In this document: positions 3,444 through 59,930 of the stretch, one piece after another
Layout: each line of letters begins with the position of its first letter
Numbering within the stretch: position 1 is the first letter of the stretch
Assembly (NCBI GenBank): GCA_026874595.1
Contig: CM049315.1
Span: 39,946,164-40,010,163, forward strand
DNA length: 64,000 nucleotides
Direction of reading: 5' to 3'
Source: Sipunculus nudus
Lineage: Eukaryota; Annelida; Sipuncula; Golfingiida; Sipunculidae
Made by a program: the position numbers and the translations under genes
The notes under the pieces: generated by a model
What the model was told of the DNA's origin: nothing
Databases searched by the model: none
Seen by the model: the letters and a program-made list of their open reading frames with translations, nothing else

Positions 3444-4982
3444 TCAATCATCATAGGTAAAGATGATGAAAGGCTCAGCTCCCTCAGCAGACTTGAATGT
3501 GTTGTTTCCAGTAACATCCTCCTTGGAAGAAAAAAAAATAAATTACATATATGAACTAACAGGAGTAAATCTTGTAGAATAACTGATATTCTGATAATAA
3601 CAATTTTACATACTAACATGTTCCAGATACAACTTGTGTCATACATCAGATGGGGCTATTCAAAGTTAACATTGATACTAAGTTTCAATTTAATCAGTGC
3701 ATGAGGCATTAGCAACTGATGCTTTTGTATAAAATGCTTTTGTAATCAAAGTAAAAGTGCTTAATTATGGGAAAAGATAGTAGAAAAATTCCTCTTAATA
3801 CTCTCCATGAGCAAATCATGCATATCAATTTCAGGAAAATATATAAAAAGCCTGATTTTACAAAATCACATGCCTGCTGTTACCTGGCAGTTACCAGCAA
3901 AAGTGAATAAAATTAAAGAGTGACACAGCTTGTCTTGTGTTTATCAAACTAATCACGACTAAGTATATGTACATCTATAGAGTTCCAGTACGGTTTTGGA
4001 CTGCGTGACAAGGCAGTATCACACATTCCTCACATTTTATTTCCTGATGTTAACCAGGCCCGGTGACTGCTGCACCTGTGGGCCCTGGCTGTGTAATCGT
4101 CAACATTGTTGGGTCTTACCACAGAAGAATCTCCGAAAAGTGCTCACTCTGGGTGGGGCCTCTGCAGAGATTCGAACTCACGACCTCCCGAGTCATTTGT
4201 TCTACCCATGAGCCACAGAAGCCGGTTAAGAGGACCTAACCATTGTCCTCCCTCTACTTACACCACTACCATGAGAGGATTTACCATTTTTCTATTATCA
4301 AGTGTTATGCTTTCCACCTTTGGACTTAGCTAACGTAACCCTAAAGCCTGATATGAAGATGGGGTTTTAAATTTCCGACCTTCATAAGCCAGGTTGGTGG
4401 TAAAAAAATGCCATTTGGAGCATTAGTTCAGTCACTGGCCTTTTGTTAACTTCTCCGAGCTAGCTCAAAGGGATACGGGAAGTGTAACTCGCTTCACACG
4501 TACACGTCTGTTGCAGCTAGCTACATTGTCACAGTTCTTGGTTCAGACGGCGTGTGAAATGTGCATTATTCGTTGTATTTGATATGGCAGTTCATTATTC
4601 ATGAAATAGAAAGCAGAGGGGCTCACTCAATCAACGTAGCCGCCACAGACCTGATAGTATGAAAATGGTGTTACTGGCACTATCTTAATCACAGGCACTC
4701 GTTTCCAGCACTAAAATGGCCTAGAAACCGTAAACACGTTGAGTATAGGCGATATACCAGTTATAAAAGAACAAGGTAATGAACTCCACCGCTACGCGGG
4801 CAAGACAACTTTTTTTTCACAAGTCCGAATTCCGGAGAATTATCCGCTTCACAAGCATGATCGCGCGCCTTTTTGTTGAAAATATCTTTATTTACAAGAT
4901 TAAACTTCCAAATATAAAAGTTCCCCACACTAACCGCGAATTCCAGCACGTTTATTTCAGCTGCGGCACCGTCATTTGTCAT
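3444..4982 (-). CDS. Small two-exon gene, product not recognised
   Basis: Exon 1 coding part is 4982-4935: ATG, 16 codons beginning MTNDGAAAEINV, then a GTTAGT donor in phase 0. The terminal exon is 3521-3444, preceded by a pyrimidine-rich tract ending TTCCAAG. It encodes 25 residues ending FIIFTYDD and a TGA stop, also in phase 0, so the two join in frame to a 41-residue protein. The 1.4-kb intron contains a SINE (3957-4226), and no convincing middle exon was found, though one could be missed. A poly(A) signal follows at 3234-3229. Upstream lie ETS-like and CRE sites, as in TATA-less housekeeping promoters. The residue composition of the last exon looks coding rather than random. I do not recognise the family and assign no function. 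The two exons could belong to a longer protein or to different genes. Confidence 0.45.
3957..4226 (-). mobile_element. tRNA-derived SINE, decayed
   Basis: On the minus strand it opens with a tRNA-like head (TGGCTCATGGG A-box type, GTTCGAATCTC B-box type) and continues into the body shared with the SINEs at 13076, 40972 and 43823 (GGCCCGGTG, GTGTAATC, GACTGCGTGACA on the plus strand). Internally deleted, with no clear target duplication. It sits in the intron of the small gene, on the same strand. Confidence 0.7.
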
Positions 4983-5234
4983 GTATACATTTACTAGTTG
5001 CGGAAGTTGACGTCATCCCGGGCTTAATGTATGTTATGGTTATAGAACAGACGTCAATGTATACAAAACAAGTGACATAATGGTCCTGGTTGTGTTTGCA
5101 TGCCATGCTCACTGATTTCCAACTTCATTGACAATTTGACAGCTGTTTGATTAGTGCGCCCAAAAGAGATGTAGAAAACGACTGGTACCATGCAGCCAAT
5201 CACATACCCCAGCTCAGGGGGAAATCCATTCTGT
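4983..5234. promoter_or_regulatory. Candidate bidirectional promoter with ETS, CRE and CCAAT motifs
   Basis: CGGAAG (ETS core) at 5001-5006 and TGACGTCA (full CRE) at 5008-5015 lie within 35 bp of the minus-strand ATG. A CCAAT motif lies in the spacer near 5195. The mirror arm keeps the CRE at 5241-5248 but has CGGATG in place of CGGAAG. There is no TATA box. This arrangement is typical of housekeeping promoters, and activity is inferred only. Confidence 0.45.
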
Positions 5235-5273
5235 CCGGGGTGACGTCAACATCCGCAACTAGTAAATGTATAC

Positions 5274-5321
5274 ATGACAAATGACGGTGTCGCAGCTGGA
5301 ATAAACGTTCTGGAATGCGCG
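5274..5321 (+). pseudogene. Mirror copy of exon 1 in the right arm
   Basis: This 48-nt copy of the first coding exon keeps ATG, frame and GTTAGT donor but has three amino-acid changes (A6V, E9G, F15C) against one silent change (GTG to GTT). No downstream partner exon was found on the plus strand. It is likely a non-functional duplicate, or the start of a diverged transcript. Confidence 0.45.
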
Positions 5322-5564
5322 GTTAGTGTAGAGAACTTTTATTTTTTGAAGTTTAATCTTGTAAATAAAGATGTTTTCAACAAAAGGCGCGTGATCATGC
5401 TTGTGAAGCGGATAATTCTCCTGAATTCGGACTTGTGAAAAAAAGTTGTCTTGCCCGCGTAGCGGTGGAGTTCATTACCTTGTTCTTTTATAACGGGTAT
5501 ATCGCCCATACTCAATGTGTTTACGGTTTCTAGGCCATTTTAGTGCTGGAAACGAGTGCCTGTG

Positions 5565-37929: not shown

Positions 37930-39018
37930 ATTTCAACTGTATGATGGTGGTAACCCCTAAAAGGTTTGTGTATTTTAGTCTTATAACCTCCTCGGTACCC
38001 TTAATAAATAACTTAAGAAAGAATAAATATGCATAACGGTACTCAAAAGCAACAAATTATAGACAATATGACATTGTCTACTTTATAATTGTAAGATATA
38101 TCAAATACATATATCGATTCAATCAATCTGTCAAATACATTGGCTAATTGTTCAGTCAATTTATAAAATTCCTAAAATTTTCTTTCAATTTATTCATATC
38201 TTGAGGGAATCAGGCATTTTTGTAAATTGCCTGAAATTTTTGGCAATTTACAAATTGACTGATTTTACACATTGACCGTGGCAGATATAAGATGTTTCGG
38301 ATTCTTTATTTTTGTCATGTCTATGGAATCGGTTTCAAAATCAGCTGTCAATCATATAATCTTTTGGAGACGTACACACCATACATTCAACAATGAGTGG
38401 CTTAACTGATATGCCGAGTTATAACGGAATGGTTTACGTACATGATGTTAGAAAGAAGACACACTTATTTAAGGTTGGTCCAGTTTACCCTCCCTAACTG
38501 TCAGGTTGAGTGCAAAATGTGACATGTTGTGAAACATGACGAAATATATGCCCCTGGTTAATGTTTCACAGTGTTTTTTACCATATGAAAAGATCTGTCG
38601 GACATATCTTAGTAAAATATTGTGCCTCATGCAAACAACATCTCTCGATAAGTCAAGGTAATCAATTAAGCGTCAAAGGAAATGAAAAAAATGTAACGCA
38701 TGCTTCTTTCCAAATGTAATCACCATGAAGTATTTTCTCGTTTGATTTATTTATTTTAAGAAACCTCGAGGTCTCCTTTACAGTGTTAACCTGTGGGTTT
38801 CATGATCCCGTCAGCAACATTCGACACGGCCAGACCTCGAGTTGTAACTCCATTAATGTAACCTCCTTGTTAAACATTTTGCAACATGAATACATCGTAG
38901 GAATAGGAGAAAATTTCCATCAGATCATGGCGACATTGTATATGCGACATCAAGGGCAACACTTTTTTAAATATTTTTGGTTTAGATGACTGCTTTCATT
39001 TATAATGCTTGCTTAAGT

Positions 39019-43822: not shown

Positions 43823-44259
43823 TTTCTTTTTTGTTTTTTTTTGGTAGAGGTAACCGCCTCGAGTTTTAGTGCTGACTTATCTAATTCTTAACCTAAGTTT
43901 ATACATTTGCAGAGTTTTCATTTCGGTTAGGGACTACTTGACAGGGTGGTAGCACTCGCTTCCTATCATGTTTGTTTAATAGTATTCTGGTGTCACCCAG
44001 GCCCGGTGTCTACCGCACCTACGGGTCCTGGGTGTGTAATAACCCCCATTGCTTGGTCATAACACCGAGGAACCTCCCAAGGACGCACTCGTATGTGAGT
44101 GATACACGGCTTTGGGACACAGCCTTCCCATTAAGCCTGCAGAGCGCTCCCCTTGGTGTGGGCCGACCGTGAAAAACCTCACCGCCTCGGCTGAGATTCG
44201 AACCCACGATCTCCCGGCTTTGAGTCCTGCGCTTTTCCCTTGAGCCACAGATACCGGGT
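43823..44259 (-). mobile_element. Full-length tRNA-derived SINE with 10-bp target duplication
   Basis: ACATTTAAAC occurs at 43813-43822 and 44260-44269. On the minus strand: head with A box TGGCTCAAGGG and B box GGTTCGAATCTC, a ~300-bp body, the tail hairpin GAGGCGGTTACCTCTACC, then an A-rich end. It is the best-preserved SINE in the window and the reference for the others. It may belong to one of the bivalve SINE superfamilies, which I cannot confirm by eye. Confidence 0.9.
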
Positions 44260-47157: not shown

Positions 47158-47970
47158 TGTTACGGGACCTAATATAAACAGAACACGTATGATTCAAGGA
47201 GATTCTGTAACACTAGGCAGCGTGAAATTTTTAGGGGAACGAATAAAGAAGTCAGTGTTTTTTGTTAACAGATAACTATAATTTATTCTTAAAACAACCC
47301 TAGCATTACAATACACTAAATCAATACAATTACACAGTACAACAACAGTTTAACAGCAAATCAATAAAATCACACAGCCTAATCAACAAAGCGCACAGTA
47401 CCTGGATACCACCACTGTCACAGCAACAAGTCCTTTAAAATGTATAAGTCGGACAAATAGTTCACACAAATCTTCTCAGAGAATAACAGTCCAATGTAAA
47501 GTTCTTGTAACAATCCCGAAAGTAAACTGAAGACCAAATAAGAATCGTCACAAATACAGAAGAAAATCTATAATTGCCGCACTTATCGGAATAGGTCCCA
47601 CAAACTGACTTACACCCTTCTGTGACTGCTTGAATATTTTCTCACCTCTCTCCCGGCTTTAAAACACAGCCTCTTAAATAACTTTTCACCCCAAGCCGAG
47701 AACTTTCCATTTCTCGAACAATCTAAAGAACCTAACATAATAAACATGCTCAAAGAACATATTAGAAGAAAGAACGCTGTGTATCTACACGTCAGGGTTC
47801 AACCAATGCGGATTAAACCGAGCCTGCAACACCCGGCCAGGCGAGGCCGCTACAACACGAGCTACGCGTGGCACACGAACTAAATGTCAACAACGCATGG
47901 AGCACCCCTACGCACAATAAAAGAAACACATGCAAGACCGCTACACACAATAAAAAGGGCATCTGTAACA
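47158..47970 (-). mobile_element. LTR (813 bp) at the junction of units 1 and 2
   Basis: Starts TGTTACGGGACC and ends CATCTGTAACA. On the minus strand it has TATTTAAGAGGCTG-type promoter sequence and an AATAAA. The flanks CTTTG and ATTTC do not form a target duplication, as expected if the junction arose by LTR-LTR recombination. On the minus strand no primer binding site follows it and no purine tract precedes it. Confidence 0.92.
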
Positions 47971-49162
47971 ATTTCAACTATATGATGGTGGTAACCCCTA
48001 AAAAGTTTGTGTATTTTAGTCTTATTACCTTCTCAGTATCCTTAAAAAATAACTTTAGAAAGATTAAAAATGCATAACGGTACTCAAAAACAACAAGATA
48101 TGGACAATATGACATTGTCTACTTTATAATTGTAAGATATATTAAATATATATATATCTCAATTAAATCAATCTGTCAAAAACATTGACTAATTTTTCAG
48201 TAAATTTATAAAGTTCCTAAAATTTTCTTTCAATTTATTAATATCTTGAGTGAATCAGGCAATTTTGTAAATTGCCCGAAAGTTATTGGCAATTTACAAA
48301 TTGACTGATTTTACACATCGACCGTGGCAGAAATAAGATGTTTCGGATTCTTTATTGTTGTCATGTCTATGGAATCGGTTTCAAAATCAGCTGTCAATCA
48401 CATAATCTTTTGGAGACATGTGCACACCATACATTCAACAATCAGTGGCTTAACTTATATGCTGAGTTATAACGGAATGGTTTTCGTACATGATGTTAGA
48501 AAGTAGACACACTTATTTTAAGGTTGGTCCAGTTTTCACTCCCTAACTGTCAGGTTGAGTTCAAGATGTGACATGTTGTGAAACATGACGAAATATATGC
48601 CCCCTGGTTAATGTTTCACAGTGTTTTTTACCATATGAAAAGATCTGTCGGACATATCTTAGTAAAATATTGTGCCTAATGCAAACAACATCTCTCAATA
48701 AGTCAAGGTAATCAATTAGGCGTCAAAGGAAATGAAAAAAAAAATGTAACGCATTCTTACATTCCAGATATAATCACCATAGAGTATTTTCTCGTTTGAT
48801 TTATTTATTTCAAGAAACCTCGAGGTCTGCTTTACAGTGTTAAACTGTGGGTTTCATGATCCCGTCAGCAACATTCGACACGGCCAGACCTCGGGTTGTA
48901 ACTCCATTAATGTAACCTCCTTGTTAAAACATTTTGCAACATGAATACATCGTAGGAATAGGGGAAAATTTCCATCAGATCATGGCGACATTGTATATGC
49001 GACATCAAGGGCAACACTTTTTTTAAATATTTTTGGTTTAGATGACCGCTCTCATTTTGAATGCTTGCTTAAGTTGTTACGAAGACAAATTGCTCAGGGG
49101 AAAAGACTGGGTCGATCGGGGATTCGAACCCATGACGGTGGCGAACAAGTGAGGCGTACCAA

Positions 49163-49173
49163 CCGCTCCGCTA
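49163..49173 (-). promoter_or_regulatory. tRNA-like A box and B box, 3' repeat of TRIM
   Basis: A box TAGCGGAGCGG here. B box GGTTCGAATCC at 49120-49130, about 40 nt downstream on the minus strand, the spacing of a tRNA gene. CTTTTCC follows the B box by about 20 nt. The anticodon arm is degenerate, so it is not a tRNA gene. Confidence 0.75.
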
Positions 49174-49232
49174 GAAAAGCAAGCTTCACTAGTGAGACAG
49201 TTCGGTCCGCTTTTGTGTCACCCCGTAACACA

Positions 49233-49241
49233 CCCCCTCTT
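49233..49241 (-). other. Polypurine tract of TRIM
   Basis: AAGAGGGGG on the minus strand, two bases before the 3' terminal repeat (which begins TGTTACGG). This is the expected position for plus-strand priming. Confidence 0.75.
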
Positions 49242-49334
49242 AAGAGCGTTCTGCTATCAGAACAAGACTAATTATCCCAGGAGTCACACTTTGGTGAGCT
49301 TATTCCCTGGGCCACAAAGTTAACCGTCACATTA

Positions 49335-49346
49335 GACGAGCCCCCA
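49335..49346 (-). other. Primer binding site of TRIM, tRNA-Pro type
   Basis: TGGGGGCTCGTC on the minus strand, three bases after the 5' terminal repeat. It is the complement of the 3' end of animal tRNA-Pro including CCA over 12 nt. The same 12 nt stand at 59760-59771 in unit 3. Confidence 0.8.
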
Positions 49347-49437
49347 TTTCGTTACGAAGACAAATTGATCAGGGCAAAAGTCTGGACCGGTCCTGGTTTC
49401 GAACCCATGTCCGTGGCGCACAAGTCCGGCGTACCAA

Positions 49438-49448
49438 CCGCTTCGCTA
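49438..49448 (-). promoter_or_regulatory. tRNA-like A box and B box, 5' repeat of TRIM
   Basis: A box TAGCGAAGCGG here and B box GGTTCGAAACC at 49395-49405, same spacing as in the other repeat. A transcript from this promoter would start inside the 5' repeat, but the TTTT about 20 nt past the B box would end it before the primer binding site unless read through. Confidence 0.75.
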
Positions 49449-50939
49449 GAAAGGCAAGCTTCACTAGCGAGACAGTTCGGTCCGCTTTTGTATCACCCCG
49501 TTACAAAGTAAATGTGTACATCTTCAGAAGTCCACTTCGGTGTCCATTTACGTACCCAGGCGGTGACACATGAATACCATGGCGTCAACCAGACTCGATG
49601 TGCCGCACCTGTGAGCCCTGACTGTGTAGTCAACCCCATATCTGGGAGGTAACACAGGGGCACAGTCAATATCCAAAATCAATATATGTCCAGTTAATGT
49701 GTTTGAAAATATAATCGTATATCTTATTTATAATATTTCTTCATTTTCTGTGGGTGTTACTTGGATTTTGATGAGGTTATGAAGCAAAGCTGGCTCTTTA
49801 ATGTGTCTTTTAATCTGATAGCCTTGACTTTAACCGGAGAAAAATATATAGCATTTGATAACAGCTGTAGGGTCTAATGATCCTATCATGTTAATCAAAC
49901 CTAAGGAGGCTCAGCTGTTAACGCAGCGTCTTTATCCTGCTTATTTATTGATACTCGACCACTGTTTGATGTCTTGAACATTAAGAACTCGACGATGAAT
50001 AATTTCCCTTTCGTGTATTAATTTATTCATTGAACGTTGCAGGTCTTGCGGTAAAATCTTTACTTGGCTTACACATATTGCTAACGAACAGAGTCGCAAA
50101 GATGCTAACTTAAAACCAGTAATAAATCATCAAAGCAATACTATTTAACCAGAATATAAGTTAACCTAATTACGTAAATAGGTCCCTTAAGACAAGGAAA
50201 GAATATCAGGCTTTACATCACGTTGAAGTGTACGTTTTTTTCTCAACCCATTTCCTAAGATGCTACTTCAATACTATATCTTTCATACAAAGGTTGCTTA
50301 AACAATTAAGACCATGTCTTAAATAGAATTTTTTCTAAGCAATGCTGGATTTCTGCACTCTGAGGTTGTCAGTTGTGTTATCAGGGGCGTAGTCCGGATT
50401 GGCGAGAGAGAGAGAGACAGAGAGATAGAGAGAGAGAGAAAAAGAGAGAGAGAGACAGGGAGAGTAAGAGTGAGAAAGAGACAGAGGGACCTAAACAGAC
50501 AGAGAAAGGCACAGACAGACTTCAAAAAAAGATTTTAGATTTAATTCGTTTTCTAAATTATAGAGAGTTTTATACGTCGAGATCGTAATTCAGGAATTAT
50601 TTTACAAATATACTGTACACGCTGTGCCTAGAACTTAACTTCTTGTAACAGTTTTAAATTCAAATTTAGGGAAATGGTTGCCAATGAAAACCAAATTTGA
50701 GTTAAAAAGTGTCGGTTATATATGCAAGCAATTAAACCCAATAACCATTGGTGAGCAGAAAAGCATTAACTCTAGATTCTAATAGATAACTGCCGACAAA
50801 CACTATTAGACAGGTCTCTATCCAAGTATGTGTTGTTGGAAACGAAAGAATGCACTAGTGACCAATAGGAACCAGTTCCTCATGTTTTGAAAACATTATT
50901 TTCACCGGCAGATATGTCAATATTTAAGAGAAAACATCA

Positions 50940-54889: not shown

Positions 54890-55307
54890 GGTAGAGGTAA
54901 CCGCCTCGAGTTTTAGTGCTGACTTATCTAATTCTTAACCTAAGTTTATACATTTGCAGAGTTTCCATTTCGGTTAGGGACTACTTGACAGGGTGGTAGC
55001 ACTCGCTTCCTATCATGTTTGTTTAATAGTATTCTGGTGTCACCCAGGCCCGGTGTCTACCGCACCTGCGGGTCCTGGGTGTGTAATAACCCCCATTGCT
55101 GGGTCATAACACCGACGAACCTCCCAAGGACGCACTCGTATGTGAGTGATACACGGCTTTGGGACACAGCCTTCCCATTAAGCCTGCAGAGCGCTCCCCT
55201 TGGTGTGGACCGACCGTGAAAAACCTCACCGCCTCGGCTGAGATTCGAACCCACGATCTCCCGGCTTTGAGTCCTGCGCTTTTCCCTTGAGCTACAGATA
55301 CCGGGTA
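54890..55307 (-). mobile_element. tRNA-derived SINE, unit 2 copy of 43823-44259
   Basis: Same A and B boxes, body and tail hairpin. The right target-duplication copy has mutated to ATATTTAAAC. Confidence 0.88.
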
Positions 55308-59500: not shown

Positions 59501-59930
59501 TGTTACGAAGACAAATTGCTCAGGGGAAAGACTGGGTCGATCGGGGATTCGAACCCATAACGGTGGCGAACAAGTGAGGCGTACGAACCGCTTCGCTAGA
59601 AAAGCAAGCTTCACTAGCGAGACAGTTCAGTCCGCTTTTGTGTCACCCCGTAACACACCCCCTCTTAAGAGCGTTCTGCTATCAGAACAAGACTAATTAT
59701 CCCAGGAGTCACACTTTGGTGAGCTTATTCCCTGGGCCACAAAGTTAACCGTCACATTAGACGAGCCCCCATTTCGTTAGGAAGACAAATTGATCAGGGC
59801 AAAAGACTGGGCCGATCCCGGTTTCGAACCCATGTCGGTGGCGCACAAGTCCGGCGTACCAACCGCTTCGCTAGAAAGGCAAGCTTCACTAGTGAGACAG
59901 TTCGGTCCGCTTTTGTGTCACCCCGTTACA
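59501..59930 (-). mobile_element. TRIM retroelement with tRNA-like LTRs, unit 3
   Basis: Same insertion site and AAGT duplication (59497-59500, 59931-59934) as in unit 2. The terminal repeats are 59501-59655 and 59775-59930, the primer binding site is 59760-59771 and the purine tract 59658-59666. As it shares the site with unit 2, it was copied by the segmental duplication rather than inserted independently. Confidence 0.88.

Follow-up and report, generated by a model that had tools for sequence, protein, structure and literature searches.

A Helenus-type TRIM with tRNA-like boxes in its LTRs in Sipunculus nudus, and joints between its LTR and a tRNA-Pro-primed Gypsy leader

Background

The stretch of DNA analysed here (the window, 64,000 nucleotides) holds at 49075-49505 a 431-bp LTR element without genes, each of whose two LTRs contains a pair of tRNA-like boxes. 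The locus raises the question of what kind of element this is, whether the boxes may serve as a Pol III promoter, and which coding element would act as its helper. The joint explanation that we consider best, with a probability of about 0.8, is a TRIM of the Helenus group that has a tRNA-like Pol III promoter in its LTR and a tRNA-Pro-primed Gypsy element as helper.

Results and Discussion

Structure of the element in the window

The element lies on the minus strand, which corrects its orientation and makes 49350-49505 the 5' LTR. Its features, together with those of a second copy in the window, are as follows.

49350..49505, minus strand: 5' LTR, 156 bp (blastn, 87.7% identity to 49075-49230 over 155 bp)
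49231..49349, minus strand: internal region, 119 bp, without a long ORF (blastn and alignment)
49075..49230, minus strand: 3' LTR, 156 bp (blastn and alignment)
49438..49448, minus strand: A box TAGCGAAGCGG of the 5' LTR (A/B pair pattern)
49395..49405, minus strand: B box GGTTCGAAACC of the 5' LTR (A/B pair pattern)
49376..49379, minus strand: TTTT in the 5' LTR, 3' of its B box, a possible Pol III terminator (sequence)
49335..49346, minus strand: primer binding site (PBS) TGGGGGCTCGTC, taken as the complement of the tRNA-Pro 3' end
49233..49241, minus strand: polypurine tract (PPT) AAGAGGGGG, adjoining the 3' LTR (sequence)
49163..49173, minus strand: A box TAGCGGAGCGG of the 3' LTR (A/B pair pattern)
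49120..49130, minus strand: B box GGTTCGAATCC of the 3' LTR (A/B pair pattern)
49101..49104, minus strand: TTTT in the 3' LTR, 3' of its B box (sequence)
49071..49074, plus strand: left target-site duplication, AAGT (sequence)
49506..49509, plus strand: right target-site duplication, AAGT (sequence)
39015..39018, plus strand: empty site in unit 1, AAGT present once
59501..59930, minus strand: copy in unit 3, with the 3' LTR at 59501-59655, the internal region at 59656-59774 and the 5' LTR at 59775-59930 (blastn, alignment)

Most of the anatomy described in the initial annotation was recovered, namely two direct repeats around a short interior, a purine tract at the repeat opposite the PBS, and a 4-bp duplication with its empty counterpart. 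The TG...CA ends that it gave stand at the outer tips of the element, whereas the inner end of the 5' LTR reads CG, not CA, in both units. The 12-nt PBS, which follows the end of the 5' LTR after a spacer of 3 nt, matches the window twice when one mismatch is allowed, and both matches, one in each copy, are exact (shuffle mean, 0.04); we name its primer on the basis of what we take to be the 3'-end letters of tRNA-Pro. The longest stop-free stretch across the whole 431 bp has 78 codons and is antisense. In the window, a Pfam search of ten ORFs gave no match, and a search for homologues of one ORF found none.

The claim of A and B boxes at tRNA spacing also held, since every LTR of both window copies, four in all, has a mismatch-free pair at a gap of 32 nt, a value taken from the sequence itself after an earlier setting of 30 nt had matched nothing; shuffled sequences gave 0.15 matches to the pair pattern at up to two mismatches. 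We do not take the tRNA-like unit for a tRNA gene, because ARAGORN reported no gene and the tRNA-like RNA folded no better than shuffles. Rfam gave no tRNA match and no match in the window at gathering score, and on the element itself a search at up to E 10 returned one match, at chance level. Two further A/B pairs, each with one mismatch, lie on the minus strand at 44194-44247 and 55241-55294 and are followed by unrelated sequence; these look like a separate tRNA-derived SINE head in two of the tandem units.

A single insertion copied with its host unit

The copy at 59501-59930 sits in the third copy of a unit of about 10 kb and shares its flanks and its AAGT with the copy in unit 2. From these common flanks and the shared duplication it follows that the two window copies go back to one old insertion, carried along when its host unit was duplicated, and are not two insertions. 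Within the element, the LTRs differ at 20 of 156 positions in unit 2 (12.8%) and at 18 of 155 in unit 3 (11.6%), the interiors of the two copies are identical, and the flanks of the units differ by just 2.6-5.5%. Thirteen alignment columns separate the pair of 5' LTRs from the pair of 3' LTRs, indicating that the differences between the LTRs are older than the split between units 2 and 3.

Such LTR divergence could be seen as an anomaly of age, an idea that we dropped once copies from the genome had been sampled by pattern and not by similarity. In that sample (13 LTR-internal-LTR units from 11 of 33 places on C1) the mean divergence was 11.4% between LTRs of the same element, 14.0% between LTRs of different elements and 10.9% between interiors of different elements, which is what old insertions should show. 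We tentatively ascribe the case in the window to concerted evolution acting on the tandem units, together with chance. Across 26 elements, the divergence of LTRs and that of interiors have a Spearman correlation of -0.51, which we put down to the picking of best-scoring copies. Interiors of 119 bp that are 100% identical occur in separate insertions (window 49231-49349, C3:76532077-76532195 and C2:30595531-30595649), and despite this identity the LTRs within an element differ by 12.8% in the window and by 17.9% in the C3 copy (L024); a selection effect explains the identical interiors in part, not fully.

The family in its own genome

If the element is a retrotransposon, then copies should occur at many sites with their own duplications, along with solo LTRs, as the initial annotation had predicted, and this is the pattern that we observed in the genome (1,426,538,692 bases in 153 contigs). 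The 431-bp query gave 1911 candidates, and the 40 that were scored yielded 56 matches at 81-100% identity. The exact LTR end with the tRNA-Pro PBS occurs at 644 + 584 = 1228 sites, a count that includes Gypsy elements with another LTR, and the reversed pattern, used as a control, occurs at none in the genome.

An exact 4-bp target duplication flanks 22 of the 38 insertions checked, compared with 2.9 expected from cross-paired flanks (7.5%) and 0-3 of 38 in offset controls. These 38 comprise 37 of the 38 places fetched and the insertion in the window, an LTR being required at both ends; L017, with one end that is not LTR, and unit 3, which is the same insertion, were left out. Because 14 of the 22 exact duplications contain G or C, richness in AT alone is not their cause. 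Solo LTRs were found at six of the 28 loci obtained with the LTR query (30 loci less the two of the window), and four of these six have exact duplications; seven of the 28 have no recognised interior on either side, and one of them, L075, was left out of the solo count since PBS-like bases follow its LTR. Both boxes are kept in independent copies: outside the window, 157 LTRs reach 140 bp (a count without loci that repeat other fetches and, inadvertently, without L063), and the consensus is present for the A box in 131 of them, for the B box in 117 and for both in 96. The family is thus neither confined to two copies nor devoid of kept boxes or of duplications, any of which would have spoken against the proposal. 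We conclude that the element was inserted in the integrase manner, with a 4-bp duplication, a tRNA-Pro PBS and a PPT, and that it is present in many independent insertions.

The structures range from single elements to tandem LTR-internal arrays of up to five LTRs. In one array (L043), five LTRs and four interiors lie inside one 4-bp duplication, ATGT. Elsewhere, a Helenus-type LTR and PBS are followed immediately by an inverted LTR, a fold-back form (L091:1353-1635), and two LTRs about 24 bp apart, with a gap that begins with the PBS, make up a still smaller element (L088:1353-1678).

Relation to described families

Helenus elements are, by definition, TRIMs whose LTRs contain sequence derived from tRNA (Kojima 2024, PMC10886601). 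In the portions of that report used here, they measure 311-1263 bp, have a PBS and a PPT, make 4-bp duplications in animals, and occur in six animal phyla, fungi and a plant; 51 families are given for bivalves, in five orders and in Pteriomorphia only, and the bivalve primer sites include tRNA-Pro. The features of Helenus that could be tested are all present here (boxes in the LTRs, size and lack of coding capacity, PBS and PPT, and 4-bp duplications), and hence the design is not new: the initial annotation, which knew of no described family built in this way, has to be corrected on this point. We assign the window element to the Helenus TRIMs (proposed class TRIMp3) on the basis of the features described for that group.

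The agreement with the Helenus account, as far as it is drawn on here, covers the size class, the tRNA-like LTR with A and B boxes, the lack of genes, the PBS and PPT, the 4-bp duplications (in animals), the tRNA-Pro primer (in bivalves) and solo LTRs. It extends to tandem arrays, which were reported for one Helenus family, LTR-11_DR of zebrafish, and are represented here by L043 and others, and to Gypsy, which is tied to animal Helenus by similarity of the PBS and presumed to be its helper (PMC10886601). The two accounts part over the LTR itself. Numerous places in this genome have it attached to a Gypsy leader, whereas the same source considers extended LTR sequence unlikely to be common to a Pol III-type TRIM and its helper. 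Its text offers the Pol III transcription of Helenus without experimental validation, at least in the portions cited.

Two other families resemble the element in part. Cassandra (PMC7215508, as excerpted) is likewise an LTR element without genes that has tandem LTR-internal arrays and an LTR promoter of the Pol III type; it differs in being a plant family whose promoter derives from 5S rRNA, whereas the boxes here are of the tRNA type and Rfam gave no match at gathering score, so that membership was rejected. The biv-TRIM elements (Satovic 2019, PMC6934838) are also small gene-less LTR elements, of bivalves, with solo repeats and tandem arrays. The sections of that paper that we cite give repeats of 202-218 bp, an interior of 77-80 bp and, in most, the PPT GGGGAGA, with no canonical PBS identified and no mention of a tRNA promoter; the window element, with an LTR of 156 bp, an interior of 119 bp and the PPT AAGAGGGGG, does not belong to them.

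A candidate helper and its joints with the TRIM LTR

Matches to the pattern of LTR end and PBS that have another spacer, CGTAACATAAAATTGGGGGCTCGTC, come from a coding Gypsy element, which was read at L108. Its separate stop-free pieces encode, in order, integrase zinc-binding, integrase core, integrase C-terminal, reverse transcriptase and RNase H domains (Pfam), the core piece falling below Pfam's cut-off and the zinc-binding and C-terminal pieces above it. An integrase upstream of the reverse transcriptase is given as a mark of the Gmr1 clade of Ty3/Gypsy in the cited parts of PMC8220671 and PMC6238403, and L108 has this arrangement, a likeness in domain order only. The LTR of L108-type Gypsy ends in GTAACA, as does that of the TRIM. 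No TRIM LTR was found in five loci with L108-type Gypsy.

The longer elements with the same repeat that the initial annotation had expected do occur, joined to Gypsy sequence. At L107, a Helenus-type LTR (82% identical to the window LTR, with a perfect A box and one mismatch in the B box) is followed, from the PBS on, by a Gypsy body 91-93% identical to L108, which continues through integrase in L115. An ORF of 330 aa at L107 has no Pfam match and matches 48 proteins, one of them named Ty3-I Gag-Pol; the 3' end of the element was not found at its expected place (L116). The same locus contains an exact direct repeat of 1699 bp (L107:1550-3248 and 3703-5401) that starts inside the Helenus-type LTR and reflects either duplication in the very recent past or an error of assembly.

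We used the L107 LTR and leader as a query, which gave 3321 candidates, of which 40 were scored. Both LTR and Gypsy leader are spanned at 32 of the 40 (L107 at 100%, the others at 86-91%), which suggests this Gypsy as the helper. Six places begin at query base 151, where the LTR ends and the PBS starts, and thus presumably have another LTR, and two have a partial LTR, one of them being L107's own duplicate. The exact end of the window LTR joined to the Gypsy leader has no match in the genome; the LTR end of L107 differs from it by a base. Four of the 32 places were read beyond the leader. Two of them, L107 and L118 (C14:8771627), run on into the Gypsy body, and the other two are short chimeras in which TRIM sequence resumes. 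In L055, which has two PBS copies, this happens at the TRIM PBS, and in L117 at LTR position 44, 14 nt upstream of the A box. At a further place, C3:15693223, the coordinates put a TRIM interior and an LTR about 540 bp past the leader, on the same strand.

Neither short chimera has a clear target duplication, L055 being flanked by ATAT and ACAG and L117 lying in AT repeats. The L055 junction is unique among the 40 scored places, and its outer LTRs differ by 5.2%; among 156 other LTRs, the 3' LTR is the nearest to the 5' LTR, while in the reverse view three LTRs are slightly nearer to the 3' LTR and two are equal. At L117, the outer LTRs agree with each other against the inner fragment at seven sites, and six sites support other groupings. 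The L117 joint could be taken to mark where an RNA starts, but it falls within a microhomology, GAAGCT, which weakens it as proof and leaves the start unfixed.

Joints of this kind would result if reverse transcription switched templates between a TRIM RNA and a Gypsy RNA packaged in one particle, and the L108 type, a tRNA-Pro-primed Gypsy with integrase upstream of reverse transcriptase, is the likely helper on the evidence of these sequences. On their 5' side, where the coding copies were read, the joints go against the expectation that no long LTR stretch is shared (PMC10886601, in the portion used). The presence of the same tRNA-like LTR on protein-coding Gypsy elements as well looks new relative to the known Helenus design. 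A further step would be that coding Ty3/Gypsy elements with integrase upstream of reverse transcriptase and a tRNA-Pro primer wear Helenus-type LTRs with a Pol III promoter, and that LTRs with such a promoter pass between TRIM and helper by template switching, a reading that we hold tentatively and at slightly less than even odds.

Alternatively, the TRIM may be an internally deleted coding Gypsy that already had tRNA-like LTRs, in which case the LTR would have originated in Gypsy. The joining of LTR and leader at most scored places fits such a history, as does the entry into the Gypsy body at two of the four places read further (L107 with L115, and L118). Against it, the TRIM interior matches L108, L107 and L095 in its first 16 bases only, the PBS. 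Other Gypsy copies, such as L095, carry an LTR unrelated to that of the TRIM, and the two PBS copies of L055 fit template switching or recombination and not deletion. We regard this origin as doubtful.

The boxes as a possible promoter and a proposed cycle

Whether the boxes serve as a promoter was approached through their conservation in 95 LTRs, a sample of best-matching loci in which four LTRs are from the window. The mean majority fraction was 94.3% for box columns, 94.5% for the rest of the LTR and 91.1% for tRNA-like columns outside the boxes. This comparison neither proves nor excludes promoter use, because copies are probably neutral once inserted. A TTTT follows the B box within 25 nt in 86 of the 95 LTRs and lies within 20 nt ahead of the A box in 65. 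The run past the B box could stop Pol III inside the 5' LTR: if Pol III is used, this first T-run must be read through to give the full RNA, and otherwise only a tRNA-sized RNA would be made.

These observations bear on a second alternative, in which the element is an ordinary TRIM driven by Pol II and the tRNA-like stretch is a passenger from a SINE or tRNA that had inserted into an ancestral LTR. Boxes no better conserved than the neighbouring LTR and a TTTT so commonly placed after the B box are in keeping with it, and so is the joining of the same LTR to leaders of Gypsy elements, which need long RNAs. The persistence of recognisable boxes at tRNA spacing in many copies argues the other way, and we consider a purely Pol II-driven element unlikely. 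That the locus is no retrotransposon at all, and instead a tandem pair of SINE-like tRNA units spread by segmental duplication, is extremely improbable: the two window copies do stem from duplication of the 10-kb unit, but the PBS, the PPT, the TG...CA tips, the exact 4-bp duplications at 22 of 38 insertions and the solo LTRs at unrelated sites all stand against it.

With the reading as a Helenus-group TRIM transcribed by Pol III, which we infer from the LTR sequence, the following cycle can be proposed. The decayed tRNA-like sequence in the LTR would act as an internal Pol III promoter, and transcription would start about 12-18 nt upstream of the A box of the 5' LTR, the spacing between start and A box found in tRNA genes. 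The polymerase would pass the weak TTTT after the B box and stop at a T-run of the 3' LTR; the product, a short RNA that begins and ends with R, may then be packaged in Ty3/Gypsy particles. Reverse transcription primed by tRNA-Pro at the PBS and integration with a 4-bp duplication would complete the cycle; for these two steps the structures are seen in the element itself, and the enzymes are those presumed of the helper.

Taken alone, the window element is a further Helenus member with clean evidence from an empty site and a duplication, and its wider value lies in the connection with a helper. Through the Gypsy leaders that carry a Helenus-type LTR, and through the short chimeras, the identity of the helper becomes directly testable. 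They also prompt one to ask how an element with genes copes with an LTR whose promoter is of the Pol III type. If Gypsy elements with Helenus-type LTRs are what they seem, the animal Helenus helper would be named from genome fossils, and a protein-coding retrotransposon would have acquired a Pol III-type LTR. A dispersed repeat at about 47575-47876 of the window, with a counterpart in unit 3, shows about 70% likeness to part of the L108 Gypsy's 3' region, and that same part also lies near the TRIM loci L008, L041, L071, L076 and L082.
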